In this document: piece by piece, positions 50,653-64,000 of the stretch
Numbering within the stretch: position 1 is the first letter of the stretch
How the letters are laid out: each line of letters begins with the position of its first letter
Source: Sphingorhabdus sp. EL138
GTDB lineage: Bacteria > Pseudomonadota > Alphaproteobacteria > Sphingomonadales > Sphingomonadaceae
DNA: 64,000 nt
Direction: 5' to 3'
NCBI RefSeq assembly: GCF_900258045.1
Contig: NZ_OGVD01000003.1
Coordinates: forward strand, 620,001 to 684,000
Notes under the pieces: model-generated
Database searches by the model: none
Told to the model about the DNA's origin: nothing
Seen by the model: only the letters and a program-made list of their open reading frames with translations
Position numbers and translations under genes: made by a program

Positions 50653-51675
50653 TCAAGAAAGGCGAGCGGAAGTCCCTTCCATCAAAATACCAGAAAACAC
50701 TCTTTTCTCATTTGCGATTTCCGGGTTTTCAATACGTTCTATCAGCATGTTTACAGCGGCTTCAGTCATGCGCCCAACTGGTTGGCGCACGGTGCTGAGG
50801 TCAAAACTTAGCCAATTTGCAGGGCCAACACCGTCAAATCCAACGACAGAAACATCATCCGGCACTTTCAGGTCATGCTCGAAACGCAGGGAATCAATCA
50901 CGCCAATCGCACTCATATCATTCACGCACATGATGGCATCGGGAATATTTCCATGTTTTTCCAGTATTTTGTCAATTGCGGCAGCCCCGCATTCATAAGA
51001 AAAATCGCCATCGATTTTGACGATATCGGTAATTCCCAGCTCTCTAAGGCGTGCTTCACTTGCTTGCTCTCGCTCTTGTCCGACGACAGAATCTGGCGGA
51101 CCGCAAATAATAGCTGCGCTGTTATGCCCGGATTCAACCAGACCAGTTGCAAGCGTTTCAGCACCCTCTGCTTGATCGCAGCATACTGCGCTTGCACTAT
51201 GATCGTTGGAATGCCGGTTGTAGAAAACCAGAGGCTTTTTCCGACGCGAAAATTCGGCGATTTGCTTTTCGGAAAGTTTGGCGGCGGCTATCACCCCGTC
51301 GACTTGATATTGCCAGATTTGTTGCAGCGCATCTTCTGCATCGCTCTCTGCTTCCAGCGCGAACAACAATACGCGAATACCGCGTTTTGAAAACCGCTGA
51401 CCAAGTTGGGCAAGGACTTCAGGATAATATAGATTGGTCAGATTGGGAATAATCACGGCGACAGAATTTGAACGTTTGGTGATCAGACTTCTTGCAATCG
51501 CGTTGGGTTCGTATCCCAACTCCTCTGCGGCTATCCTGACCTTTTCTCTCGTTTTTGCAGAAACTGACGCTCCGGCCTTGTAGCAGCGAGAGACAGCAGA
51601 TTGAGACACTCCAGCCTTTTTTGCAACATCATAGGATGTGACGGGCTTGCCTCTACGTTTCTCAATATCCGCCAT
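50653..51675 (-). CDS. LacI-family transcriptional regulator (candidate master of the 51-64 kb regulon)
   Basis: About 340 residues from ATG 51673-51675 (MADIEKRRG); an ATG at 51708 would add 11 residues. HTH with TSYDVAKKAGVSQSAVSRCY and hinge helix ending PNAIARSLITKRS, then a periplasmic-binding-protein-like effector domain (VAVIIPNLTNLYYPEVLAQL, DVSVVGFDG). Divergent from TonB receptor 2. The 14-bp palindromes with central CG upstream of five nearby transcription units are the form LacI-family proteins bind, so this protein is the likely repressor; its inducer would be the substrate or an intermediate. Confidence 0.9.
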   Translation of the reverse strand: MADIEKRRGKPVTSYDVAKKAGVSQSAVSRCYKAGASVSAKTREKVRIAAEELGYEPNAIARSLITKRSNSVAVIIPNLTNLYYPEVLAQLGQRFSKRGIRVLLFALEAESDAEDALQQIWQYQVDGVIAAAKLSEKQIAEFSRRKKPLVFYNRHSNDHSASAVCCDQAEGAETLATGLVESGHNSAAIICGPPDSVVGQEREQASEARLRELGITDIVKIDGDFSYECGAAAIDKILEKHGNIPDAIMCVNDMSAIGVIDSLRFEHDLKVPDDVSVVGFDGVGPANWLSFDLSTVRQPVGRMTEAAVNMLIERIENPEIANEKRVFSGILMEGTSARLS

Positions 51676-51795
51676 GTCTTTGGTTACCCCTCGCCGCTGT
51701 ACCGGCATATCGTAGCTGTGACAGCCTTTCTATCAACAAAGCTACTGCCGATTGCAAGGCACCAGTGATATACTGATCAAGTGGTTCAAAAAAAT

Positions 51796-51809
51796 TGCAT
51801 GCGCATGCA
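51796..51809. promoter_or_regulatory. LacI-type operator candidate A
   Basis: Perfect 14-bp palindrome TGCATGCGCATGCA with central CG, 120 bases before the LacI ATG at 51675. It is a close variant of sites B-F and may serve autoregulation. Confidence 0.6.
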
Positions 51810-51941
51810 CCATTACATTCAATATCCAATCGGAACGCTTCCAGTGTATCAGATAGACAGAAATTTCTGCCTAATTTATATTATTGATAATTAACAATAA
51901 TATTTCAAATCTGGCAAATCAGCAACAGTATCTCAGCATTT

Positions 51942-51955
51942 TGCATTCGAAGTCA
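51942..51955. promoter_or_regulatory. LacI-type operator B (TonB receptor 2)
   Basis: TGCATTCGAAGTCA, the exact reverse complement of site C, 78 bases before the receptor start. The overlapping TTGCAT could be a -35 element. Confidence 0.75.
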
Positions 51956-52033
51956 TTATTTTATTGCCATATTGCACGGTTGTGGATATCAAAATTTCAA
52001 ACAGCGTTTGCATAAATTTAGGGAGGGAGTCGT

Positions 52034-54499
52034 ATGGCTATATCAATTACAAAGAAATTAATGCTGGGTGCGTCAGGTAGTGCGTTGGCCATCGGAGGCT
52101 TTGCTCCGGCATATGCACAAGATGAGGCAGGCGCCGAAGACAGCAATGTAATCATTGTTACGGCGAACAAGAAAGAAGAGAGCATCCAGGATGTCAGTCT
52201 TTCTATTCAGGCTTTTGATGCAGAAGCACTCGACAAGGCCGGCATTACCGATGCGTCCCGGCTGGAGCTTTTGGTCTCGGGTGTTAACTACGCGTTTTCG
52301 GGCAACGATGCGAAATTCAATGTTCGCGGCGCGAACTCGAACAACACTTTCGCAGATAACGGCTCAATCGTCGGCGCGTATGTAGACGGCGTTTACAAAG
52401 CACGGGCATCGCAGCAAACACGGGCATTTTTTGACGTAGAACGGGTTGAATTCCTGAAAGGTCCGCAAGGAACTTTATATGGCCGTAATACATTTGCCGG
52501 TGCGCTGAACCTTCACACCACAAAGCCGGACCTCACAGACTTCTCAGCAGGGATAGAGGTTGGCTACGAGCGGTTCGATAGCGTCAAAGCCGAGGGATTC
52601 ATCAATGTTCCGCTAGGCGATACATTTGCTGTGCGTTATGCCGGCTATATCCAGAAAAGCGATGGCTTCATTAACAATCTTGCCGGCCCAGATATTGGTC
52701 AGCAGGATGATAAAGGTTTCCGGATTAGCGCGCTTTGGGAGCCCACCGACAATTTCAATCTGATCGCCAGGCTGCAACATACGGCTGAAGATGGGCGCGA
52801 AGCAGGATTATTTGGTTACACCTTCCTTTGCCGGAATGTAACTCCATCGGGTCACACTGATGCCTTTGGATCAGAGCGCGATTGTGCCAATCCCAACCGC
52901 GGTTCTGCAGGCCTGGGGCCAGCAGCAAATAGTGGTGCTCCTGGCTCTGGCCCGCACACCATCGCGCAGGACTATGTGCCTGATGTGAATTTGGAAGAGA
53001 CGGTTGTGTCGCTAGAAGCCAATCTTGACCTCGGTGCTGTCTCGATCAAGTCGATCAGCTCCTACACGGATTTCCAGAACCTGTTTGGGTTTGATTTTGA
53101 TTTCGGGCCGAACCCACATGCCATTGGCGGCTTTGATGAAACACTGGAATCCTATAGCCAAGAATTGCAGTTCAACACCAATTTTGATGGGCCGTTTAAC
53201 CTTACGGCAGGCGCTTATTATTCCAAAGAAGACACTTTTTATAGCTTCTCGATCTACAACCAGACGGTTCGCGACCCCGCTTTCCCGCGTGTAGTAGCTC
53301 CGGTTTTGGATAATGCGGGCAATCCGGTTCTGGATGGAATGGGCAATCCTTTGTCATTGCCTGTTTTGACGGCAACGCCAACTGTTGGCTTGAACCGCAG
53401 TCTCAATGGCTTTTTTGCAGATAGCGCGTTTTTGGATATCGAAACATTCGGTATCTATGGACAAGCAGAGTTTGAACTCACCGATCAGTTGCGTATCATC
53501 GGTGGTATTCGGTACAGTTCAGAGAAGAAGGAACTGACCGGCGGCGGTAGCAATTTTACCACCAACGGCCCTGTGACAGTCGTTCCAGGGGCGGCTGGTT
53601 CGTCTCCCGTAATTCTTCCTGATAGCCGCGATGTGTTCCTCATCAATGAGAATGCGGCTGGTGCCAATACGGCCAGCCGGACCTTTAACAATGTCGATTA
53701 TAAAGTCGGCATTGAATTTGATGTCGCTGATGACGTGCTGCTATATGCCAACACGGCAACAGGTTTTCTGTCTGGTGTTGTAAACAACAATGGTTCAACG
53801 ACTGATCAGCAAGATTCGCAAGTATATGAAATCGGCCTGAAGAGCATTTTGTTTGATGGCGATCTGACCTTCAACCTCGCGGGACATTATACGGAATATT
53901 CCAATCTTCTGTCGCAGTTCCAGGTCATTGATCCCAATACCGGAATCGGTGTTACGTTTAGTGAAAACGGCGGTTCGATCGAAGCCTATGGTGTGGAATT
54001 GGAAGCGGTTTATCGACCAACGCAAGAGTTGACCTTGGCGATGAACGCCGCTTGGCAGGATGTGCAGTTTGGAACATTTGGTCAAACAAGTCCTTATCAA
54101 TTGAACAATGGCACCACGACTACCTTTGTCGATCTGTCAGGAGAAACACCAACATTCTCACCCGATCTGACAGTGTCCCTGACCGGCTCTTATGAATTTG
54201 ATCTGGGTGAAGATTTTGGTTTCCTTACACCCTATGTCCAGTTCTATTATAGTGATGGATTTGGAACATCGAATTTGTTCGCCATTGATCCAGCCGCGTT
54301 CCAGAGCAGTTATACGAAAACCGACATACGTTTGGTTTGGGACTCGCCTGATCGGAACTATTCTATCGAAGCCTTTATCGAGAATATTGAAGATGAAGCA
54401 GTTCTGTCGCGGAGTAACAATAATGGCGGGGACGACTTGCTGCAGTCTTCCTACCTCTATCCGCAAAATTATGGACTGCGTCTGAAAGCGCGGTTCTGA
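52034..54499 (+). CDS. TonB-dependent outer-membrane receptor (2)
   Basis: 821 residues. Signal peptide ending PAYAQD, TonB-box-like NVIIVTANKKEES, plug with GSIVGAYVDGVYKAR and VEFLKGPQGTLYGRNTFAG, barrel ending LRLKARF. No STN domain. Distinct from receptor 1. Shares an operator with the catabolic genes to its right, so it is the probable outer-membrane entry for their substrate. Ends at a strong terminator. Confidence 0.93.
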   Translation: MAISITKKLMLGASGSALAIGGFAPAYAQDEAGAEDSNVIIVTANKKEESIQDVSLSIQAFDAEALDKAGITDASRLELLVSGVNYAFSGNDAKFNVRGANSNNTFADNGSIVGAYVDGVYKARASQQTRAFFDVERVEFLKGPQGTLYGRNTFAGALNLHTTKPDLTDFSAGIEVGYERFDSVKAEGFINVPLGDTFAVRYAGYIQKSDGFINNLAGPDIGQQDDKGFRISALWEPTDNFNLIARLQHTAEDGREAGLFGYTFLCRNVTPSGHTDAFGSERDCANPNRGSAGLGPAANSGAPGSGPHTIAQDYVPDVNLEETVVSLEANLDLGAVSIKSISSYTDFQNLFGFDFDFGPNPHAIGGFDETLESYSQELQFNTNFDGPFNLTAGAYYSKEDTFYSFSIYNQTVRDPAFPRVVAPVLDNAGNPVLDGMGNPLSLPVLTATPTVGLNRSLNGFFADSAFLDIETFGIYGQAEFELTDQLRIIGGIRYSSEKKELTGGGSNFTTNGPVTVVPGAAGSSPVILPDSRDVFLINENAAGANTASRTFNNVDYKVGIEFDVADDVLLYANTATGFLSGVVNNNGSTTDQQDSQVYEIGLKSILFDGDLTFNLAGHYTEYSNLLSQFQVIDPNTGIGVTFSENGGSIEAYGVELEAVYRPTQELTLAMNAAWQDVQFGTFGQTSPYQLNNGTTTTFVDLSGETPTFSPDLTVSLTGSYEFDLGEDFGFLTPYVQFYYSDGFGTSNLFAIDPAAFQSSYTKTDIRLVWDSPDRNYSIEAFIENIEDEAVLSRSNNNGGDDLLQSSYLYPQNYGLRLKARF

Positions 54500-54579
54500 T
54501 AATCGCACTCCGGTCCTCGACCGGGGGACTGAGTTAAACAGGGGGTGGAAGGATCAAAGGCAAGCGATCCTTCCAATTT

Positions 54580-54609
54580 GGGAGAGGTGTTTCACCTCTC
54601 CCTTTTTTT
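54580..54609 (+). terminator. Rho-independent terminator after TonB receptor 2
   Basis: GGGAGAGGTG (54580-54589), loop TTT, CACCTCTCCC (54593-54602), then seven T. A second perfect hairpin, GGAAGGATC/GATCCTTCC (54547-54574), lies just upstream. Confidence 0.93.
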
Positions 54610-54668
54610 GCCAATTGAATACACTCTGGGGTTTGGCCCGGTATAACTCCGTGCACCAACTATCGGAT

Positions 54669-55679
54669 TTAAAGCCCTTGCATCTGACGATTGCGCTCCA
54701 ACAGGTCGAGACCTTGCACGAAGAAATAATGTAACAGATCAATATATACCCAGTTCTCGGAGAGTCTGTCGCCTTCGCGGCGATAGACATCAACGACGCG
54801 CATTTCGCTTCGGCCAAGACCGGCCGGCATGCCGAGAAAGCTGCCTGACAGGCGGTTGTTCAGATTGGGCCAGCCGAAGAATCCAGCATAATTCCCTTCG
54901 GCAAATCTTGCCACATGGCCGTTATAGACCTTGTCAGTCAGGCCTTCCCGAAAAGGATATTGATGCTGCTGCTGATATCGCTCAATCGTGTAGGTTGAGC
55001 CAATACCGGTTGGTCCGTACCATGCCATATCTTCATGCCAGCTTCGCGCTAGATATTCCGGCGGGCATCTATCCTCACCTGACTTGTTGAGCCGATCAAG
55101 GTCCTCAATCATCTGGTTGAGGATCTGCATGGTGCGACTGGCCTCTGCAGGGGGCACCGGTTCATTCTGGACGCCGTCATTTGTTTTTGGACCAGGCTTG
55201 ATAATGTCTGAACCCATTTGCGGCGGCAACGGATATTGATCCGCCTGCTGCATAACGCTCAATATATCGCAGAAAAATGCTGTCTCTTTGATCTTGCCAT
55301 CCACTACGCAGTGAAATTCGGCATATGGCAGCATGGTCAGTTTGTGGTTCGGCCGAATGCCTAGCCATGGTTCATCGAATAGTCCCATGAAATGTCCGCT
55401 ACTGCAAACCCAGGTGGAGCTGCCGTCGTCAACGTCATTCTGTCCGGCAAAAAATATAGTCTCCCGGCGTTGCAAGGAATGAAAAGCGCTGTGCAGCGGG
55501 GTCCAGAACGCATCTACCGCATGTTTCGCATCATCTTTGTCGGAAAATGGATGCATTCCGCGCCACTGATATTCTGGCACGGCATGGTCAGACAAAACAT
55601 CGTAGAGGCCGGCCGATCCTGCCCGGTCAAATGCGTCCTGATATTCTCTTACAATCTGCTTTGCCTTTTGTAATTCCAT
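54669..55679 (-). CDS. Double SnoaL/NTF2-like protein (1)
   Basis: 336 residues with two NTF2-type cone domains: residues about 1-140 (VREYQDAFDRAGSAGLYDVL, FFAGQNDVDD) and about 165-330 (YLARSWHEDMAWYGPTGIGS, GHVARFAEGNYAGFFGWPN). The family includes polyketide cyclases, isomerases and dehydratases that use acid-base residues in the cone. The ATG at 55677-55679 has GGAGAA upstream; a TTG two codons earlier is less likely. Operator C lies 50 bases before it and it is divergent from the cupin operon. The substrate is unknown. Confidence 0.82.
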   Translation of the reverse strand: MELQKAKQIVREYQDAFDRAGSAGLYDVLSDHAVPEYQWRGMHPFSDKDDAKHAVDAFWTPLHSAFHSLQRRETIFFAGQNDVDDGSSTWVCSSGHFMGLFDEPWLGIRPNHKLTMLPYAEFHCVVDGKIKETAFFCDILSVMQQADQYPLPPQMGSDIIKPGPKTNDGVQNEPVPPAEASRTMQILNQMIEDLDRLNKSGEDRCPPEYLARSWHEDMAWYGPTGIGSTYTIERYQQQHQYPFREGLTDKVYNGHVARFAEGNYAGFFGWPNLNNRLSGSFLGMPAGLGRSEMRVVDVYRREGDRLSENWVYIDLLHYFFVQGLDLLERNRQMQGL

Positions 55680-55729
55680 GCTCAACGCATTCTCCCATTA
55701 GCAACGATACAGCTTATCTCATCGAATAA

Positions 55730-55743
55730 TGACTTCGAATGCA
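55730..55743. promoter_or_regulatory. LacI-type operator C (SnoaL 1)
   Basis: TGACTTCGAATGCA, 50 bases before the leftward SnoaL start. On the minus strand it includes TTGCAT, a possible -35. Confidence 0.8.
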
Positions 55744-55827
55744 ATCATTTTTCGACTTTTAGCCTAAGACCGATTTCTGACTATCACAACCAGCCTATTT
55801 CTTTACAAAAATCTTTTCAATTTAATT

Positions 55828-55841
55828 TGACTTCGGATGCA
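55828..55841. promoter_or_regulatory. LacI-type operator D (cupin operon)
   Basis: TGACTTCGGATGCA, 38 bases before the cupin ATG. It overlaps a promoter-like TTGACT (55827-55832) with ATAAAT at 55851-55856, so binding would block RNA polymerase. Confidence 0.8.
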
Positions 55842-55879
55842 AAAAAGCCAATAAATCGCAGTCTCAACGAGGGTAAAGC

Positions 55880-56830
55880 ATGACAGTCCGTTCTCAAAAT
55901 GAATCAGGCTCAGAGAAGCGCTCACCGGTTCAACTGGTTCGATATGAAGAGCTGATTCCGTGTTACAATGCCTTCATTGACACCCGCACACCTGGATCGG
56001 ATCAGAAAGAGAATTTCACCATAATTGGCCCCGGCGTCTCGGAGAACCCGGACCAGCATGTCCATATCGCCGAACCGCATGGCTTTAACATTGGCGCAGC
56101 GCGTCAACCGCCTGGCTGCGTCAACTCACAGCATAGCCATGAAACCGAGGAAGTGTTTTTCGTGCACAAGGGGACCTGGTCCTTCGACCTTGGGGAGCAT
56201 GGTGACGATGCCCGGATCACTTTGAAGCCTGGTGATCTGATATCCATTCCGACCCACGTCTTTCGAGGCTTCGAAAACATCGGCGATGACATGGGGTTTC
56301 TGTGGGCCGTGCTTGGTAGAGATGATCCTGGTCATGTGCTCTGGGCTCCAGAAGTTTTCAAGATGGCCGAAAAATATGGGCTTGTTCTTCTCGAAGATGG
56401 CAGCCTGATTGATACCAATGAAGGTGATGTCGTTCCCGCCAACAAGAAGCCGATGCCGGTTACCACTGGTGAGCAAGTTGCTGAGCTGAAAACATTCGAC
56501 GAAGCGCAATTGCGGGCCTGTTGTACTTTCTCAGAACAATCAGTCAGCCGAAATCGCAAGTTAATTGCCGAAGACGGTGAATTGAATTGGCCGCACGGGT
56601 TTGAGGTCATTCAAACCCGCCTTGGTGAACAGGAATCAATTGATTCCTATGCGTTTGAGGGCTCCGAGGTGCTGTTTGTTCATGACGGCGAACTGACAAT
56701 AGAGACAGCTGGTGAGGAGACAATTGTTCGCGCGGGCGACACTGCCACAATCACACCGGGATCGACACGGTCTTTCGCCAATAAATCATCAGGCGACGTC
56801 GTTTTTTTGGTTGTTCGCGGCAAATTATAA
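55880..56830 (+). CDS. Bicupin protein with one intact metal site
   Basis: 316 residues. N-terminal cupin has the complete motif 1 (G79 with five residues to HSH at 85-87, then E91 and G98) and motif 2 PGDLISIPTHVFRGFEN with its His near 126. The C-terminal cupin (about 225-316, GSEVLFVHDGELTIET) lacks the HxH. This resembles quercetin-dioxygenase-like or isomerase bicupins. First gene of a five-gene rightward operon; operator D precedes it. Confidence 0.85.
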   Translation: MTVRSQNESGSEKRSPVQLVRYEELIPCYNAFIDTRTPGSDQKENFTIIGPGVSENPDQHVHIAEPHGFNIGAARQPPGCVNSQHSHETEEVFFVHKGTWSFDLGEHGDDARITLKPGDLISIPTHVFRGFENIGDDMGFLWAVLGRDDPGHVLWAPEVFKMAEKYGLVLLEDGSLIDTNEGDVVPANKKPMPVTTGEQVAELKTFDEAQLRACCTFSEQSVSRNRKLIAEDGELNWPHGFEVIQTRLGEQESIDSYAFEGSEVLFVHDGELTIETAGEETIVRAGDTATITPGSTRSFANKSSGDVVFLVVRGKL

Positions 56831-56844
56831 GCTGAAAGAAAGCT

Positions 56845-57567
56845 ATGACTGCTCTGGAAGGGAAAACCGCACTCGTCACTGGTGCAAGCAAAGGAATCGG
56901 TCGAGCTATCGCTTTGTCACTTTGCGAGGCCGGTACCCATGTGATTGCGGTGGCTCGTTCATCTGAAAATCTGGACAGTCTTGGTACGCAACTAGGAGAC
57001 AAAGGGACGATTTGGGCGGAAGATGCAACCAGCGATGCATTTCTCGAGAAAATTGCTGCGCTACAATCGCTCGATATCCTGATCAATAACATTGGCACCA
57101 ACCGGCCGCAGCCTTTTGTTGAGGTAAGCGATGAAAATCTGGATGTAATGCTTGATATGAATGTTCGCGCAACCTTCCGGATTGCAAGGGAGGCGGCAAA
57201 GAAAATGGGGCAGGGTGGCTCTATCGTGAATATGACATCGCAAATGGGGCATGTCGGATCACCGGGCCGGACAGTCTATTGCATGACCAAACATGCGATA
57301 GAGGGGTTAACCAAGGCAATGGCGGTTGAACTGGCACCAAAGGGTATTCGCGTGAATTCCGTTGCACCAACATTCATCGAAACGCCAATGACTAAGCCAA
57401 TGCTCGACGATCCAAAATTTGCAGATTTCGTTAAAAGCATGATCCCGCTTGGGAAAATTGGTCAACCGGAAGATGTTGCTGCAGCCGTGCTTTATCTTTG
57501 CAGCGATGGTGCTTCGATGGTGACCGGGCATAGCTTGCTCGTCGACGGAGGATGGACCGCACAATGA
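56845..57567 (+). CDS. SDR-family dehydrogenase of the catabolic operon
   Basis: 240 residues, classical FabG-like: TGASKGIG at 12-19, Ser132, YCMTK with Y145 and K149, and GHSLLVDGGW near the end. Oxidises or reduces a hydroxyl/keto substrate with NAD(P). It lies 14 bases after the bicupin gene and overlaps the next gene by four bases, so it works in the same pathway. Confidence 0.9.
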   Translation: MTALEGKTALVTGASKGIGRAIALSLCEAGTHVIAVARSSENLDSLGTQLGDKGTIWAEDATSDAFLEKIAALQSLDILINNIGTNRPQPFVEVSDENLDVMLDMNVRATFRIAREAAKKMGQGGSIVNMTSQMGHVGSPGRTVYCMTKHAIEGLTKAMAVELAPKGIRVNSVAPTFIETPMTKPMLDDPKFADFVKSMIPLGKIGQPEDVAAAVLYLCSDGASMVTGHSLLVDGGWTAQ

Positions 57568-58640
57568 GCAAATTTCCAATCACCCATGTCGCCACTACGG
57601 ACATTTCCGAGATGCTTGACCCCGTTCCCGGGCGGCGAATGGATCTTCCCGGTTTTGATGACGAATTTGTCGACTTTCCCGATTATATTATCCGCATAAC
57701 CGAACGGATATGGCATGAACGCAAGGTTGATTTGTGCCTGAAATATTATACTGAAAACTGTCTGATCCATACATTGTCGGGGGATATTGTGGGCGCACAA
57801 ACTGTGGTCGATAATACCCATGCAACACTGGAGGCATTTCCGGACCGGAGGCTGGATGCAGACAATGTGATCTGGTCGGAAGACGGAGAAGCAGGGCTTT
57901 ATTCCTCGCATCTCATTACCAGCAAGATGACTAACTTGGGGCCTTCTGAATTTGGCCCCGCGACTGGTAAAAAGGTTCGTGTGATGACTATTGCCGACTG
58001 TGCCTGCCGCGACAATCAGATTTATGAAGAATGGCTGGTGCGCGATTATTCGGCAGCGGTCATGCAACTGGGGTTTGATGTTGGTGAGACTGCACGTAAA
58101 TTGGCGCAGCAAGACATCGCCGCCAACAACTCGCTGATCGACTTTCACACGGCTGAGCATGAAGCTGTTCAGGGCGCCGATACCGATCAATTGCCGGACA
58201 ATTCAGCTTCGCAGGAAGCGCAAGAATTTGTAGCGCGATATATCAGAGATATTTGGAATAGTCGCAATCAAGAAGCCTATCCGGAACATTATGATTATCG
58301 TGTTGGTGCGCGATATCCGGGACTAAGGGACTTTTACGGCCCGGATGAAGTTTCGCCCTATCATCAGAAAATTCTGGATGCCTTTCCTGATGCCAAAATC
58401 CGCGTCGACCATATTGCAGACATTCCCTATCTGGGAGAGGCGCGCGATATAGCAGTACGCTGGACATTGGCCGGAACGCATAGTGGCGACGGGATTTATG
58501 GAGCGCCAACCACTGCCCCCGTCCTGATCTTGGCAGTCAGTCATTTTCGCGTGATAAATGGCCGTGTCCGAGAAGAAACCACCATCTGGGATGACGTTGC
58601 GGTCCACCGGCAAATCGAGACCGCCCGGTTGTCCGTATGA
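57564..58640 (+). CDS. Double SnoaL/NTF2-like protein (2)
   Basis: 358 residues from the ATG overlapping the SDR stop (ATGA); an ATG at 57552 would add four residues. Two NTF2-type domains: about 30-190 (IWHERKVDLCLKYYTENCLIH, IYEEWLVRDYSA) and about 215-355 (YIRDIWNSRNQEAYPEHYDY, VRWTLAGTHSGDGIYG). Distinct from the double SnoaL encoded divergently. Probably an isomerase or hydratase-type step or substrate carrier; function not assigned. Confidence 0.82.
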   Translation: MSKFPITHVATTDISEMLDPVPGRRMDLPGFDDEFVDFPDYIIRITERIWHERKVDLCLKYYTENCLIHTLSGDIVGAQTVVDNTHATLEAFPDRRLDADNVIWSEDGEAGLYSSHLITSKMTNLGPSEFGPATGKKVRVMTIADCACRDNQIYEEWLVRDYSAAVMQLGFDVGETARKLAQQDIAANNSLIDFHTAEHEAVQGADTDQLPDNSASQEAQEFVARYIRDIWNSRNQEAYPEHYDYRVGARYPGLRDFYGPDEVSPYHQKILDAFPDAKIRVDHIADIPYLGEARDIAVRWTLAGTHSGDGIYGAPTTAPVLILAVSHFRVINGRVREETTIWDDVAVHRQIETARLSV

Positions 58641-59533
58641 CGGCACCGGCGCGGATCATTGATGCGCACCACCATCTCTGGGACCTTTCCCATTGCCATT
58701 ATCCCTGGTTGATGGAACGCGGTGTGAGGCGCTTTTTTGGTGATCCTGAGCCGATTCAGAAAAATTATCTGACCTCTGATTTCACCGCTGATCAGGGCGA
58801 TTTGCCCATAGTAAAATCGGTGCATATCCAGGTTGGTGTGCAAGAAAAAGACGCGATCAACGAAACGCTCTGGCTACAAAGCGTCGCAGATGAAGGTGGC
58901 TTCCCGCACGCAATTGTCGCATTTGCCGATTTGACTGGCCGTGATCTTGAGGCACAACTGGATGCCCATACCAGGGCCGCAAACCTGCGCGGTGTTCGCC
59001 AGATTGTCGGGCGCAGTGCTGAAGAAGACGCTAAGACCGGCACTTCGGCTTTGCTATCGGATCCGGCCTTTGCCGCCGGCTTAAGGTTGCTGGCCAAACG
59101 CAAATTGTCTTTTGATCTACAGCTTACTCCGCCGCTTATGGATGTGGCCGCTAAACTATTTTGTTCGATCCCCGAAACACCGCTGGCTCTTTGTCACTGC
59201 GGCAGCCCAAGCGATTTTTCGATGGACGGTATCGAGCAATGGCAAAACGGTCTTGAAGCCTTTGCCGGTCACGAGAATATGATCTGCAAAATATCCGGAT
59301 TTGGCATGTTCGACCATGGTTGGACTGTCGACACGATCCGGGAACATGTGCTGCGTGTTATCGATATTTTCGGGCCGAACCGCGTCGCCTTTGGCAGCAA
59401 TTTTCCGGTCGACAAATTATATGCGAGCTATGGCGATGTCATGGGTGCTTATTTGAAGATTACCGAAGGTTTTTCAGATGACGAACGTCAGGCCATGTTC
59501 CATGATAACGCTGCACATTTTTATAGGATATGA
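58637..59533 (+). CDS. Amidohydrolase-2 family lactonase-like hydrolase
   Basis: 298-residue TIM barrel of COG3618 type: IIDAHHHLWDL at the N-terminus (metal His 11 and 13), ALCHCGSPSD, and FGSNFPVDKLYASY near the end. Close families are L-fuconolactonase, rhamnonolactonase and 2-pyrone-4,6-dicarboxylate lactonase, all of which open a lactone. Start overlaps the SnoaL stop (ATGA). A lactone intermediate in the pathway is a reasonable inference. Confidence 0.87.
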   Translation: MTAPARIIDAHHHLWDLSHCHYPWLMERGVRRFFGDPEPIQKNYLTSDFTADQGDLPIVKSVHIQVGVQEKDAINETLWLQSVADEGGFPHAIVAFADLTGRDLEAQLDAHTRAANLRGVRQIVGRSAEEDAKTGTSALLSDPAFAAGLRLLAKRKLSFDLQLTPPLMDVAAKLFCSIPETPLALCHCGSPSDFSMDGIEQWQNGLEAFAGHENMICKISGFGMFDHGWTVDTIREHVLRVIDIFGPNRVAFGSNFPVDKLYASYGDVMGAYLKITEGFSDDERQAMFHDNAAHFYRI

Positions 59534-60237
59534 TGATGACGCCAGATGAAAATTTTATCCAATCACTCGCCCGTTATGATACGCCAACGATTTGCAATTC
59601 GATTGAAGTAGCGCAGGGCAAACGCGGTTTTGACGACTATACGCGGGGAACTTTTCAGGCAGCGATGAACGGCGCGAAGGCGATGGTTGGCTATGCAAGA
59701 ACGGCGAAGATTGCCGGGAAAAATCCACCAACAGAATCGCCGGAAATTATCAAGGCACGCCGACTGGATTATTTCCGATACATGGCGGACGGTCCCAGGC
59801 CCGCTCTCTGCGTTATAGAAGATGTTGATGGCCCCAATTGCGTGTCAGCCTGGTGGGGAGAGGTTCATACGGTCGTGCACAAGGGTCTCAAATTGTCGGG
59901 TGCCGTTACTAACGGTGTGATGCGTGATCTCGACGATCATCAGGAGGGTTTTCCTGTTATCGCTGGTTCTGTCGGCCCCAGTCATGCCTTTGTCCGCGTT
60001 GAGGAATTGGAATGTCCTGTGGAGATTTTCGGAATGAAAGTTAGGCCGGGCGACTTGGTTCATGCCGATCAGCATGGCGCGCTTGTCATCCCGCCAGAAA
60101 TTATGCCGGAATTGCAGGCCGCTATCGACAAGCTGCTAGCGACGGAACAGATCATCATTGCGCCGGCAAAACAGGACGGGTTTGATATCGAAACGCTGGA
60201 AACGGCCTGGCACGAATTTGAGCAATCCCGAACCTAG
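59530..60237 (+). CDS. RraA-like protein (HMG/CHA aldolase family)
   Basis: 235 residues with the RraA/aldolase fold: LARYDTPTICNSIE, the active-site GAVTNGVMRD (R132, D133 retained; the usual Asp before Gly is Asn), GSVGPSHAFVRVEE, and VRPGDLVHADQHGALVIPPE. Relatives cleave 4-hydroxy-4-methyl-2-oxoglutarate or 4-carboxy-4-hydroxy-2-oxoadipate to pyruvate. Size and catalytic pair favour an aldolase over the RNase E inhibitor. Last gene of the operon; its stop overlaps that of the convergent MetE-like gene. Confidence 0.85.
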   Translation: MMMTPDENFIQSLARYDTPTICNSIEVAQGKRGFDDYTRGTFQAAMNGAKAMVGYARTAKIAGKNPPTESPEIIKARRLDYFRYMADGPRPALCVIEDVDGPNCVSAWWGEVHTVVHKGLKLSGAVTNGVMRDLDDHQEGFPVIAGSVGPSHAFVRVEELECPVEIFGMKVRPGDLVHADQHGALVIPPEIMPELQAAIDKLLATEQIIIAPAKQDGFDIETLETAWHEFEQSRT

Positions 60238-61379
60238 TTCCAAAGCCGCCCGGTAGCGATCTCCGCGCCATCCGCCATGCTTGCTAGCTTCGCATAAACT
60301 ATATCCTCATCCACCGCACCAAATCCGGCGAAGGTTGAAAAACCACAGTCGGTGCCAGCGATTACACGTTCCCGGCCCACGATATTGGCGAACCGTTCAA
60401 TCCTTTGCGCAACCAATTCGGGATGCTCGATAAAGTTGGTGGTGCTATCGATCACGCCGGGGATCAGGATCTTGTCATCCGGGATATCCATTTCGGCAAT
60501 CTCGGCCCATTCATGCCCGTGACGCGGATTGGAATTTTCAAACAACAACCCTTGCGGTTTGGCCTTCAGCGCAACCGGCATGACCATGCTCATCGGCGCA
60601 TCGTGATGATGCGGCCCTTCATAATTACCCCAACAGATATGCATCCGCACCCGGTCGGCAGGGACGTTGCGCAACGCATGGTTTAGTGCCTCGACATGGC
60701 GCATGGCTAGGCGTTCATAGTCTTCTTCTGGCTGATCCTTGAACATCATATGCTTGCCGAGACCGAGATCGGGCGTGTCGAGTTGCAGGATATATCCGGC
60801 TTCCACGATGGCCTCATATTCTGGCCGCATAGCTTCGGCGAGAGCCTCAAGATACTCCTCCTGCGTGGCATAGTGGCTGTTGGGCTGGAACAGAGCGATC
60901 ACGCCCGGTGATGCCGCGTTCATAAAACCCTCAGCAACATCTGCATTCTCCAGAGCGGCGCTGAAATTATCAAGGTCATCCTGCAGCGGTTGCATGGATT
61001 TGACTGCCACAGGTCCGACACAACATGGGCGGGTATAGGTTGGTGTGCCACCGCTTGATGCCTGTCGCTCCAGAAATCCGGGAAATTCTTCCAGGTCTGA
61101 AGGCGGGGTACGCGGGCTGTCGCCTTCAAAACCGGTAATTCGGTCCTTTATGTAGGTTGCATAGGAGATTTTGCTCATCTCGCCATCGCTGACGATATCG
61201 ACCCTAGCTTCGTCCTGTTTCTTCACAACATCAGCGACGGCATTACGGATCGTTTTGGCAAAAACTGCCTGATCCTGTTCTTCGCCATGTTCGTGGGCGA
61301 AGACACAATCGGTCACCGGTTTGGAGCGCGGCAAGCTGCCGACATGGGTTGTCAAAATGCGATCGGTACTGATTTTCAT
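60234..61379 (-). CDS. Short MetE-like zinc protein (cobalamin-independent methionine synthase II family)
   Basis: 381 residues equal to the C-terminal barrel of MetE. Zinc ligands are present: H247 and C249 (MHICWGNYEG), E281 (LLFENSNPRHG) and C345 (AGTDCGFS). The N-terminal folate-binding half of MetE is missing. Such proteins include epoxyalkane:CoM transferase and uncharacterised alkyl or methyl transferases, so here it may transfer a group between the substrate and a thiol. Operator E lies 41 bases upstream. Confidence 0.85.
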   Translation of the reverse strand: MKISTDRILTTHVGSLPRSKPVTDCVFAHEHGEEQDQAVFAKTIRNAVADVVKKQDEARVDIVSDGEMSKISYATYIKDRITGFEGDSPRTPPSDLEEFPGFLERQASSGGTPTYTRPCCVGPVAVKSMQPLQDDLDNFSAALENADVAEGFMNAASPGVIALFQPNSHYATQEEYLEALAEAMRPEYEAIVEAGYILQLDTPDLGLGKHMMFKDQPEEDYERLAMRHVEALNHALRNVPADRVRMHICWGNYEGPHHHDAPMSMVMPVALKAKPQGLLFENSNPRHGHEWAEIAEMDIPDDKILIPGVIDSTTNFIEHPELVAQRIERFANIVGRERVIAGTDCGFSTFAGFGAVDEDIVYAKLASMADGAEIATGRLWN

Positions 61380-61420
61380 GCCTGCTCCTCGTTGGCTTTT
61401 GGGAACGGCCTAAAGTGCTA

Positions 61421-61434
61421 TGACTGCGAATGCA
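61421..61434. promoter_or_regulatory. LacI-type operator E (MetE-like gene)
   Basis: TGACTGCGAATGCA, 41 bases before the MetE-like ATG. Confidence 0.78.
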
Positions 61435-61454
61435 AATAATTGCGTCAAAAACAG

Positions 61455-62738
61455 CTATCCCGGCGTTCCGCCATAGCGACGCAGACGGATATCAGCCTGC
61501 TCTTTATGCCCTGCAAATCCTTCCAGCGCGCAGAGACGCGAACAATATTCTCCGACAAGAACCGAGGCTTCTTCCGTGACTCGCTGGAACGTACACGTCT
61601 TGAGATATTTTCCGACCCACAGCCCGCCCGTGTAGCGCGCCGCCTTATTGGTCGGCAGCGTGTGATTGGTCCCGATCACCTTGTCACCGTAGGAAACATT
61701 CGTTTCCTTGCCGAGGAACAGTGCACCGTAATTGGTCATATTGTTGAGGAAATAATCTGGATTCTTTGTCATCACCTGCACATGTTCCGAGGCGATGTCG
61801 TCGGCAACCGCAACCATTTCATCATAGCTGTCACAGACAATTACCTGCCCATATTCTTCCCATGCTTTTCCTGCGATTTCCGCAGTCGGCAAGATCGTCA
61901 ACTGCCTTTCCACTTCTGCCATGGTGTCCTTGGCCAGTTGTTCGGAATTGGTCAGCAGCACAGCCGGGCTGTTCGGGCCATGTTCCGCCTGACCCAGCAA
62001 GTCCGCTGCACAAAGTTCACCATCGACACTGTCATCCGCGATGACCAGCGTCTCGGTTGGACCGGCGAACAGATCAATGCCAACGCGCCCGAAAAGCTGG
62101 CGCTTGGCCTCTGCAACAAACGCATTTCCGGGGCCGACAAGGATATCGACCGGATCGACTGTCTCTGTCCCTACCGCCATCATGGCCACGGCCTGAACAC
62201 CGCCAACGGTATAGATTTCGTCAGCACCGCCCATATCCATGGCAACAACAATTGATGGATGCGGTTTGCCTTCAAATGGTGGTGCGGTGGCGATAACACG
62301 CGGGACGCCAGCCACTTTTGCGGTGACGACGCTCATATGGGCTGAAGCGATCAAAGGATATTTCCCGCCCGGGACATAGCAACCCACCGCATTCACCGGA
62401 ATATGCGTGTGCCCTAATGTCACGCCGGGAAGCGTCTCAACCTCAACATCTTTCATTGAGTCCCGTTGAATCTGTGCGAAATTACGAACCTGTTCCTGCG
62501 CAAAGCGGATATCATCCTGTGCCGATTGCGGTACCTGTTCATAACAGGCGTCAATTTCCTCACGGCTCAGCCGATAGGAATCGGGTGTCCAGCTGTCGAA
62601 TTTATCTGAATATTCGCGGACAGCAGCATCGCCGCGTTCTTCCATATCGGCAATAATGCCTTCGACAATTTCACGGACTTTGGCATCGGTTTGCATCTTG
62701 GTATCGGCATCAATGCCTTCTTTGAGCCAGCGGGACAT
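61455..62738 (-). CDS. HisD-family dehydrogenase in catabolic context (HpsN-like)
   Basis: 427 residues from ATG 62736-62738, which has AGGAGA just upstream. All HisD residues are kept: zinc ligands Q250 and H253 (GQAEHGPNS), D352 ([13 protein letters not shown]) and H411 (GFAGHKE), and catalytic E318-H319. HisD enzymes oxidise an alcohol to an acid in two NAD-linked steps. No his gene is nearby and it carries the shared operator, so it probably acts on another alcohol, as HpsN does on dihydroxypropanesulfonate. Histidine biosynthesis cannot be excluded from sequence alone. Confidence 0.85.
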
Positions 62739-62778
62739 AACATTCTCCTTGTCGATTTTGAGCGCACATAATCGGTTT

Positions 62779-62792
62779 TGCATTCGAATGCA
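62779..62792. promoter_or_regulatory. LacI-type operator F (HisD-like gene), perfect palindrome
   Basis: TGCATTCGAATGCA, perfect, extending to TTGCATTCGAATGCAA; 40 bases before the HisD-like ATG. On the minus strand TTGCAT and TATGTG are 17 bases apart, a plausible promoter overlapped by the site. Confidence 0.85.
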
Positions 62793-62825
62793 ATAATTGC
62801 CGTCCACCAGGTGCTAATTTATGTC

Positions 62826-64000
62826 TTAAGCGAGCTTTCCGAATAGGTAGAGGAACAGCATGATCGCGACAAAAACGACAAGAAGTCCCCATAACGGACG
62901 GTCAATCCGTCCCGGCACAAGATACCATCCATCCTGCTTTTCGGCTTTGCCACTTTCGCGGAAATGGCGGATCTGTCCCGGCACTGTTTGTTCATGCCAG
63001 TCTTTCTGAAAACCGTCGAGAAGCACACTCGCGATCCACGATACGATGATATTGATCCCACCACCGATAACTACATACCAGGGCCAAGCGATTTCGGGAT
63101 AAAGACCGTTAATGCCCATTAATCCGCCCAGACCGACAATTACGATCAGTCCAATGGCTCCTGCCGCAACGCCAACCAGCAAACCGCGTTCGGTCGTATG
63201 TTTGGAGAAGAAGCCCATGCCGAACATGGCGAGCTTGGCGCCGACAAAATAGGAACCGACTTTCGACAATGTTTCCAAAATCGACCCGCCGCTGGAGATG
63301 AAAGCATAAGCCATCGGGATGACCATCAGCGCCCAGATCAAAGTGAATATCCGCGACATGAGAAGATAATGCGCCTCGCTGCCATCCCCTTTGATAAACG
63401 GCTTGTAGATATCAGCAACGCTCACCGTGGATAGCGAATTGAAAGCCGAAGATAGGCTGGACATGGAAGCGGACAGGATGGCCGCTGCCAATATCCCCAT
63501 CAGCCCGGGAATGGCCAATGTATTGGCGAAGGTGAGGATGATCTCATTGGGTTGTTCAAATGGCTCCCCTTTGAAATGTACGAAGAGCAACGCACCGACG
63601 AAGAAAAAGACGAAGTAGAGAATGAAGGCAACATAGCCCATCAACAGATAGGATTTTTTCGCGTCCCCAATATTCTTCGCCGCTAGTGCCCTCTGCACCA
63701 TCATCTGGTTCGCGCCGTAGACGGTGATATGGAACAAAGTCATCGCAAACACACCCGCCCAGACCGTCGGCGCGACGGTGAAATCAAGATCGGTATTGAG
63801 CGGATCGAGTTTGCCATTCTCTGCCAGAAACGCAGTCGCGTCGGATAGGGGAGAAACTGTACCGAGGAGACAGTAGAGAATGATACCGGCACCGAGAAAC
63901 AGGATCGCGCCTTGCAATACATCGGTCCAGATCACTGCATTCATCCCGCCAAGCAAGGTATAAACCAGCACAATCGCCGTCATGATGATGATCGATATTT
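62826..64000 (-). CDS. Sodium:solute symporter (SSS family), N-terminus outside window
   Basis: At least 390 residues of an SGLT/SSS-type carrier; the frame stays open to the right edge. Visible marks: LLGGMNAVIWTDVLQG, NQMMVQRALAAKN, then AAILSASMSSLSSAFNSLSTV, the sodium-site helix of the family, with some nine or ten membrane helices in the visible part. It lies 87 bases upstream of the HisD-like gene on the same strand. Probably the inner-membrane importer of the catabolic substrate. Confidence 0.9.
   Translation of the reverse strand, partial: ISIIIMTAIVLVYTLLGGMNAVIWTDVLQGAILFLGAGIILYCLLGTVSPLSDATAFLAENGKLDPLNTDLDFTVAPTVWAGVFAMTLFHITVYGANQMMVQRALAAKNIGDAKKSYLLMGYVAFILYFVFFFVGALLFVHFKGEPFEQPNEIILTFANTLAIPGLMGILAAAILSASMSSLSSAFNSLSTVSVADIYKPFIKGDGSEAHYLLMSRIFTLIWALMVIPMAYAFISSGGSILETLSKVGSYFVGAKLAMFGMGFFSKHTTERGLLVGVAAGAIGLIVIVGLGGLMGINGLYPEIAWPWYVVIGGGINIIVSWIASVLLDGFQKDWHEQTVPGQIRHFRESGKAEKQDGWYLVPGRIDRPLWGLLVVFVAIMLFLYLFGKLA

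Follow-up and report, generated by a model that had tools for sequence, protein, structure and literature searches.

Genes at the locus

The window that we analyzed is 64,000 nucleotides long and corresponds to positions 620,001–684,000 of contig C2 from a sphingomonad genome (3.66 Mb in four contigs). At 50653..51708 on the minus strand, it encodes a LacI-family regulator of 351 amino acids, with matches above cut-off to PF00356 and Peripla_BP_3 (PF13377). This is the LacI gene that was predicted to head the region, and it is the only match to PF00356 in the genome. Divergent from it is a TonB-dependent receptor (52034..54499, plus strand; PF00593 and PF07715), followed by a SnoaL-like protein of 338 amino acids that we call SnoaL-A (54669..55685, minus strand; PF07366).

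Five genes on the plus strand come next: a double cupin protein (55880..56830; PF07883 in two stretches), a short-chain dehydrogenase or SDR (56845..57567; PF13561), a tandem SnoaL-like protein, SnoaL-B (57552..58640; PF07366 in two stretches), an Amidohydro_2 protein (58637..59533), and an RraA-like protein of an aldolase family (59530..60237; PF03737). The best-fitting model for the Amidohydro_2 protein is fucono-lactonase, below its cut-off. The minus strand then encodes a MetE-like protein of 381 amino acids (60234..61379; PF01717), a HisD-like dehydrogenase (61455..62738; PF00815), and a sodium:solute symporter (62826..64000). The symporter gene runs past the end of the window, and its full open reading frame (L028:2826-4535) is above the cut-off for TIGR00813. 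Beyond the window are an alpha/beta hydrolase, which was included in the family scan, and then an aldehyde dehydrogenase, a small SnoaL protein, a divergent SnoaL protein, and an AraC-type gene, all read from their translations.

The GC content of the cluster is 50.7%, as compared to 54.3% to the left of it. Among 32 genomes from the genus, only the source genome (G000) and G030 contain a homolog of the LacI protein (E ≤ 1e-40). The lower GC content and the rarity within the genus suggest that the cluster was acquired. After the cluster (L028:9270-13893), we noticed genes that resemble those of hydroxyproline catabolism: DapA-like, proline racemase-like, amino acid oxidase-like, and aldehyde dehydrogenase genes, as read from translations. 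These lack an operator of the cluster's type.

A palindrome upstream of the cluster's genes

The original prediction described five exact copies (B–F) and one close variant (A) of a 14-bp LacI-type operator, and a pattern search confirmed all six. Site A (TGCATGCGCATGCA, 51796..51809) lies between the divergent genes for LacI and the TonB receptor, 87 bases before the ATG of LacI at 51708. Site B (51942..51955) is an exact match on the minus strand and lies before the TonB receptor, as predicted, at 78 bases from its start. The other four are indeed 38–50 bases before start codons: site C (55730..55743) is 50 bases before the ATG of SnoaL-A at 55679 (or 44 if TTG 55685 is used), site D (55828..55841) is 38 bases before the cupin gene, site E (61421..61434) is 41 bases before the MetE-like gene, and site F (TGCATTCGAATGCA, 62779..62792) is 40 bases before the HisD-like gene. 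For the HisD-like gene we chose ATG 62738 as the start because the longest open reading frame, which begins at 62807, would contain site F. A seventh site, G (C2:687257-687270), lies 3.3 kb past the end of the window and 46 bases before the start of the small SnoaL gene; simple base counting gives an expectation of 0.002 such sites in 15 kb.

Within the window, the exact 14-bp pattern has six strand-hits at five places, while 100 dinucleotide shuffles averaged 0.03 and never exceeded 2. If two mismatches are allowed, the excess disappears (13 seen, 11.66 expected), so only near-perfect sites should be counted. Exact sites are not equally frequent elsewhere in the genome: all six places with the exact pattern (B–G) are at C2:671942-687270, or 15.3 kb out of 3.66 Mb. 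The backward control pattern had zero places in the whole genome. A symmetric pattern, TGMMTKCGMAKKCA, which site A fits and site D does not, occurs at seven places in the genome, of which six are in the cluster and one is inside an unrelated open reading frame.

Aligned sites from loci with related LacI proteins show that the operator is longer than first described. The palindrome stands, but with an outer T and A added it spans 16 bp instead of 14 bp: TTG(CA/AC)TTCGAA(TG/GT)CAA, with half-sites that are mostly TGCA or TGAC. As predicted for a LacI-family operator, it has dyad symmetry with CG at its center, and the palindrome is even. We also considered if the TTGMMT of the operator might double as a -35 element, and found no convincing -10 element relative to the sites in the aligned flanks. 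A variant half-site, GTACTTCGAATGCA, is found repeatedly close to genes of the cluster (L093:9573, L070:2577, L070:12929, and L068:10501); it could be the operator itself with a single base inserted on one side.

Places with one mismatch number 27, including site A, and are scattered across the genome. Of the 26 that are outside the cluster, we inspected five, and four of these are inside open reading frames. We rejected one palindrome with one mismatch, TGCATTCGAATGTA at L030:3902-3915 (C2:733901-733914), which is 46 bases before putA, as a further target of LacI, because it also precedes putA in two genomes, G023 and G026, where no protein matches LacI at E ≤ 1e-40. The same site precedes putA in G030. 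G021 has the same 14-mer, and putA was not found in the 3 kb of sequence covered there.

The motif accompanies relatives of LacI in other genomes

Among 147 related genomes, 12 encode a homolog of LacI at E ≤ 1e-40. The strict 16-mer TTGMMTTCGAAKKCAA is present in seven of the 147. Six of these seven belong to the 12 with the homolog; the seventh is G127, where the site has AA/TT steps that are not found in the window's sites. The strict 16-mer was found in 5 of 7 relatives whose LacI is at least 50% identical and in 2 of the 140 others (p = 8e-7, Fisher's test, ignoring kinship).

We also examined 385 genomes drawn from the class. The strict pattern is present in 10 of these, with CA or AC steps on both sides in four (G000, G160, G320, and G268). 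Four genomes encode LacI at E below 1e-100 (G000, G160, G320, and G376). In G160 and G320, the cluster is present and its genes are preceded by sites. In G376, which has both LacI and genes of the cluster, we found no site scoring 14 or more in the 18 kb covered. The site in G268 is where a solute-binding protein gene begins, on a contig of 3.8 kb. Both G127 and G268 have the strict 16-mer without a related LacI at the E-values used.

To collect more loci, we scanned with six aligned LacI sequences and obtained 79 loci, 55 with LacI proteins that are 50–99% identical and 24 with LacI proteins that are 25–40% identical. We scored these with a matrix built from sites A–G only and with 300 control matrices that were chosen not to recognize the motif. 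(These replaced an earlier control of 200 permuted matrices, one of which reached 118 sites and was presumably near-identical to the motif.) Near the closer relatives, 46 of 55 loci (45 of 54 without L085) contain a total of 135 sites, as compared to a control mean of 2.56 and a maximum of 19; these 55 loci are not independent, as at least L084, L085, and L120 match G143, G030, and G051 and several others are close kin. Near the more distant relatives, we found six sites in 4 of 24 loci (control mean 1.04, maximum 5). Of the 135 sites, 119 are before an open reading frame and 112 are before a core gene of the cluster, while the rates for random positions are 27% and 16.5%. The closer relatives of LacI mostly sit among the same genes.

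In nine of the 55 loci, no site reaches the matrix threshold. Three of these (L093, L095, and L140) contain the gene set with altered sites that score at most 14.6, and two more (L113 and L131) have a site with a score of 14.6. The remaining four (L097, L121, L126, and L132) have no intergenic site that scores 8 or more. Two loci from Rhodocyclaceae, as well as the locus from UKL13-2, have the same genes with altered sites of 14.6 or less.

In G130, which has a LacI protein that is about 40% identical, a perfect TTGCATTCGAATGCAA (L077:10391-10404) lies before a divergent NAD-dependent epimerase-like gene that is unrelated to the set. This type of operator is thus common to a wider group of LacI proteins and is not exclusive to the genes of the cluster. 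Relatives of LacI were also found in 53 plasmid records, all below 60% identity.

Composition of the cluster

We counted families across the 55 loci by a mechanical choice of open reading frames, which misses some genes: LacI itself was caught in 45, even though all of the loci were found via LacI. By this count, the most common families are the MetE-like protein (39/55), SnoaL-B (38/55), the HisD-like protein (36/55), the cupin (36/55), SnoaL-A/C (35/55), the TonB receptor (35/55, plus 7 of the window's type), an HpaI-type aldolase (35/55), and the hydrolase (33/55). SDR (23/55), MFS (21/55), SSS (14/55), amidohydrolase (9/55), and L-serine ammonia-lyase (9/55) proteins are found less often. 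The window and its near relative G030 lack the HpaI-type gene and encode the RraA-like protein instead. By its position before individual genes, the shared operator identifies the members of the set that belong together across the α-Proteobacteria and β-Proteobacteria.

For L-serine ammonia-lyase, the operator in L122 is just 16 bases before the gene's start, while in L097, which also contains this gene, we found no operator. At L122:299-1669 and in five similar loci from Porphyrobacter and Erythrobacter, the L-serine ammonia-lyase gene neighbors two operators, along with a SnoaL gene that is divergent from it.

Other genes are found near the operators in individual loci. In G116, a gene from PF03458 ("glycine transporter") lies behind an operator-led SDR gene. 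Also in G116, at L070:17007-18863, a TPR-sulfotransferase gene is divergent from the SDR gene, with the operator in between. L123 has an amidase near the operators. In a MAG from the Kordiimonadaceae (L083:609-2083), SapC and DUF6445 genes are beside the cluster. GCV_T and MTHFR genes adjoin an operator-led TonB receptor in G089; these families are known from O-demethylation.

LacI as the probable regulator

We propose that these sites are the operators of the LacI protein at 50653..51708, and that some 15 genes form one local regulon under their control. Judging from the sequences, we give this a probability of roughly 0.92. The prediction of one regulon is supported by the confinement of exact sites to one locus and by the motif's association with relatives of LacI in other genomes. 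Its extent has to be revised, in that the single locus continues for about 4.4 kb past the window and includes site G. Within the protein, S35, Q36, S37, and A38 of the recognition helix are invariant in six aligned relatives, and L75, which we take to be the leucine of the hinge helix that would fit into the operator's central CG, is invariant in ten.

We infer the binding itself, repression rather than activation, autoregulation through site A, the presence of an inducer, and a catabolic role. Most likely, a dimer of LacI would sit on the 16-bp palindrome, 38–87 bases before the start codons, and would hold the genes for uptake and catabolism off; an intermediate of the pathway would then act as the inducer and relieve repression. 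Site A might serve in autoregulation, and it also precedes the divergent gene for the TonB receptor.

It is improbable that LacI binds these sites wholly or partly as an activator. Sites B and A are farther from the start codons (78 and 87 bases) than C–F are, and the lack of a convincing -10 element relative to the sites would fit with activation. On the other hand, sites C–G are 38–50 bases from the start codon, which is where a repressor would meet the promoter, and LacI proteins are mostly repressors.

We consider it very unlikely that another regulator binds the palindromes and that the LacI gene is a bystander: an AraC-type gene is at the far end of the cluster (L028:8338-9147, read from its translation), but the motif accompanies relatives of LacI in genomes that were picked by LacI alone, the stretch of G030 past the SnoaL-C gene (L067) has sites and no open reading frame that matches the AraC-type protein, and an even palindrome with a central CG is the form of LacI-family operators (PMC4052901).

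The regulatory logic is that of an ordinary local LacI regulon. In the sections of Ravcheev et al. 2014 (PMC4052901) that bear on LacI-family regulons of Proteobacteria, most motifs are even palindromes with a central CG, over 75% of sites are 30–140 bases before start codons, and autoregulation is given for 72% of the regulators. Our regulon resembles these in the form of its palindrome, in its spacing to start codons, and in having a site before the regulator's gene. It differs in that the controlled genes do not form a recognized sugar pathway; as far as those sections describe the compared material, sphingomonads are not part of it.

What the pathway may break down

The controlled genes are probably for uptake and catabolism: they include the TonB receptor, the symporter, the HisD-like and MetE-like proteins, the tandem SnoaL protein, the double cupin protein, the SDR, hydrolases, and an aldolase. 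We searched the open-licence literature on mycosporine catabolism, the gene set, HpsN, LacI regulons of sphingomonads, and bloom bacteria, and found no description of this cluster. The interest of the regulon lies in the pathway that it outlines, which we did not find described in that literature, rather than in its regulation. The shared operator makes the question of the substrate testable with one reporter strain.

The MetE-like protein belongs to the same family (PF01717) as the C-terminal domain of cobalamin-independent methionine synthase, and an H-x-C motif and a late C, which we take to be the zinc ligands, align with solved relatives. In contrast to methionine synthase, it is a single protein of 381 amino acids within a cluster, and each of the methionine synthase models that it matched scored it under the cut-off.

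The hints suit a methylated, amino-acid-bearing compound from algae. A specific version, which we consider a long shot, is that the pathway spread horizontally and acts on mycosporine-like amino acids, sunscreens of the shinorine type that are found in cyanobacteria and algae. In that case, the O-methyl group would go to the MetE-like enzyme, oxidation of the ring's CH2OH would fall to the HisD-like enzyme, and ring opening would be the task of the SnoaL, cupin, and hydrolase proteins. Pyruvate would then come from the aldolase, and the L-serine ammonia-lyase of some clusters would consume the released serine. LacI would sense a cyclitol-like intermediate and switch the whole pathway. In the open-licence literature, we found no catabolic gene family for mycosporine-like amino acids to compare with.

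The main rival is that the genes break down a sugar, methylated or deoxy, that comes from an algal polysaccharide and is processed by a non-phosphorylating route. This is possible, and we would put it at somewhat under one chance in three. The amidohydrolase best fits the fucono-lactonase model and the common aldolase fits the models for GarL, HpaI, and 2-keto-3-deoxy-rhamnonate aldolase, all below cut-off, and sulfatases are present in G143 and G089. But the lactonase-like family is found in just 9 of 55 loci, no family of sugar-acid dehydratases or glycosidases was found among the scanned proteins (which are part of the neighbors), and the HisD-like, MetE-like, and SnoaL genes would be left without a role.

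Among proteins of solved structure, those closest to the HisD-like protein are HpsN-type sulfopropanediol 3-dehydrogenases (E = 1.9e-120; PDB 8v35 and others), although the protein is also above the cut-off of NCBI's hisD model. A 2,3-dihydroxypropane-1-sulfonate pathway with the HisD-like protein as HpsN nevertheless seems highly improbable, as a general family scan of part of the neighbors turned up no sulfo-lyase family, and the neighbors of the HisD-like gene do not resemble that pathway as we understand it (the aldolase, MetE-like, and SnoaL genes are foreign to it).

Hosts

The gene set is rare in its genus, and some of the bacteria that carry it are partners of algae or cyanobacteria. 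Some of the hosts are aerobic anoxygenic phototrophs (PMC5248499, PMC10008586). We dropped the idea of a link to photosynthesis because PF00124 has no match in the source genome. The links of hosts to algae or cyanobacteria are individual cases: Sandarakinorhabdus cyanobacteriorum is linked to cyanobacteria by its name only, and the titles of the other host records show no link to algae or cyanobacteria. The group that includes Phycosocius and Aquidulcibacter is tied to algae or cyanobacteria, according to a portion of PMC10008586. UKL13-1, an α-proteobacterium, and UKL13-2, a β-proteobacterium, came from a single co-culture with Aphanizomenon (PMC5248499). Their loci are L105 and L140, respectively; in L140, the genes are accompanied by altered sites only.
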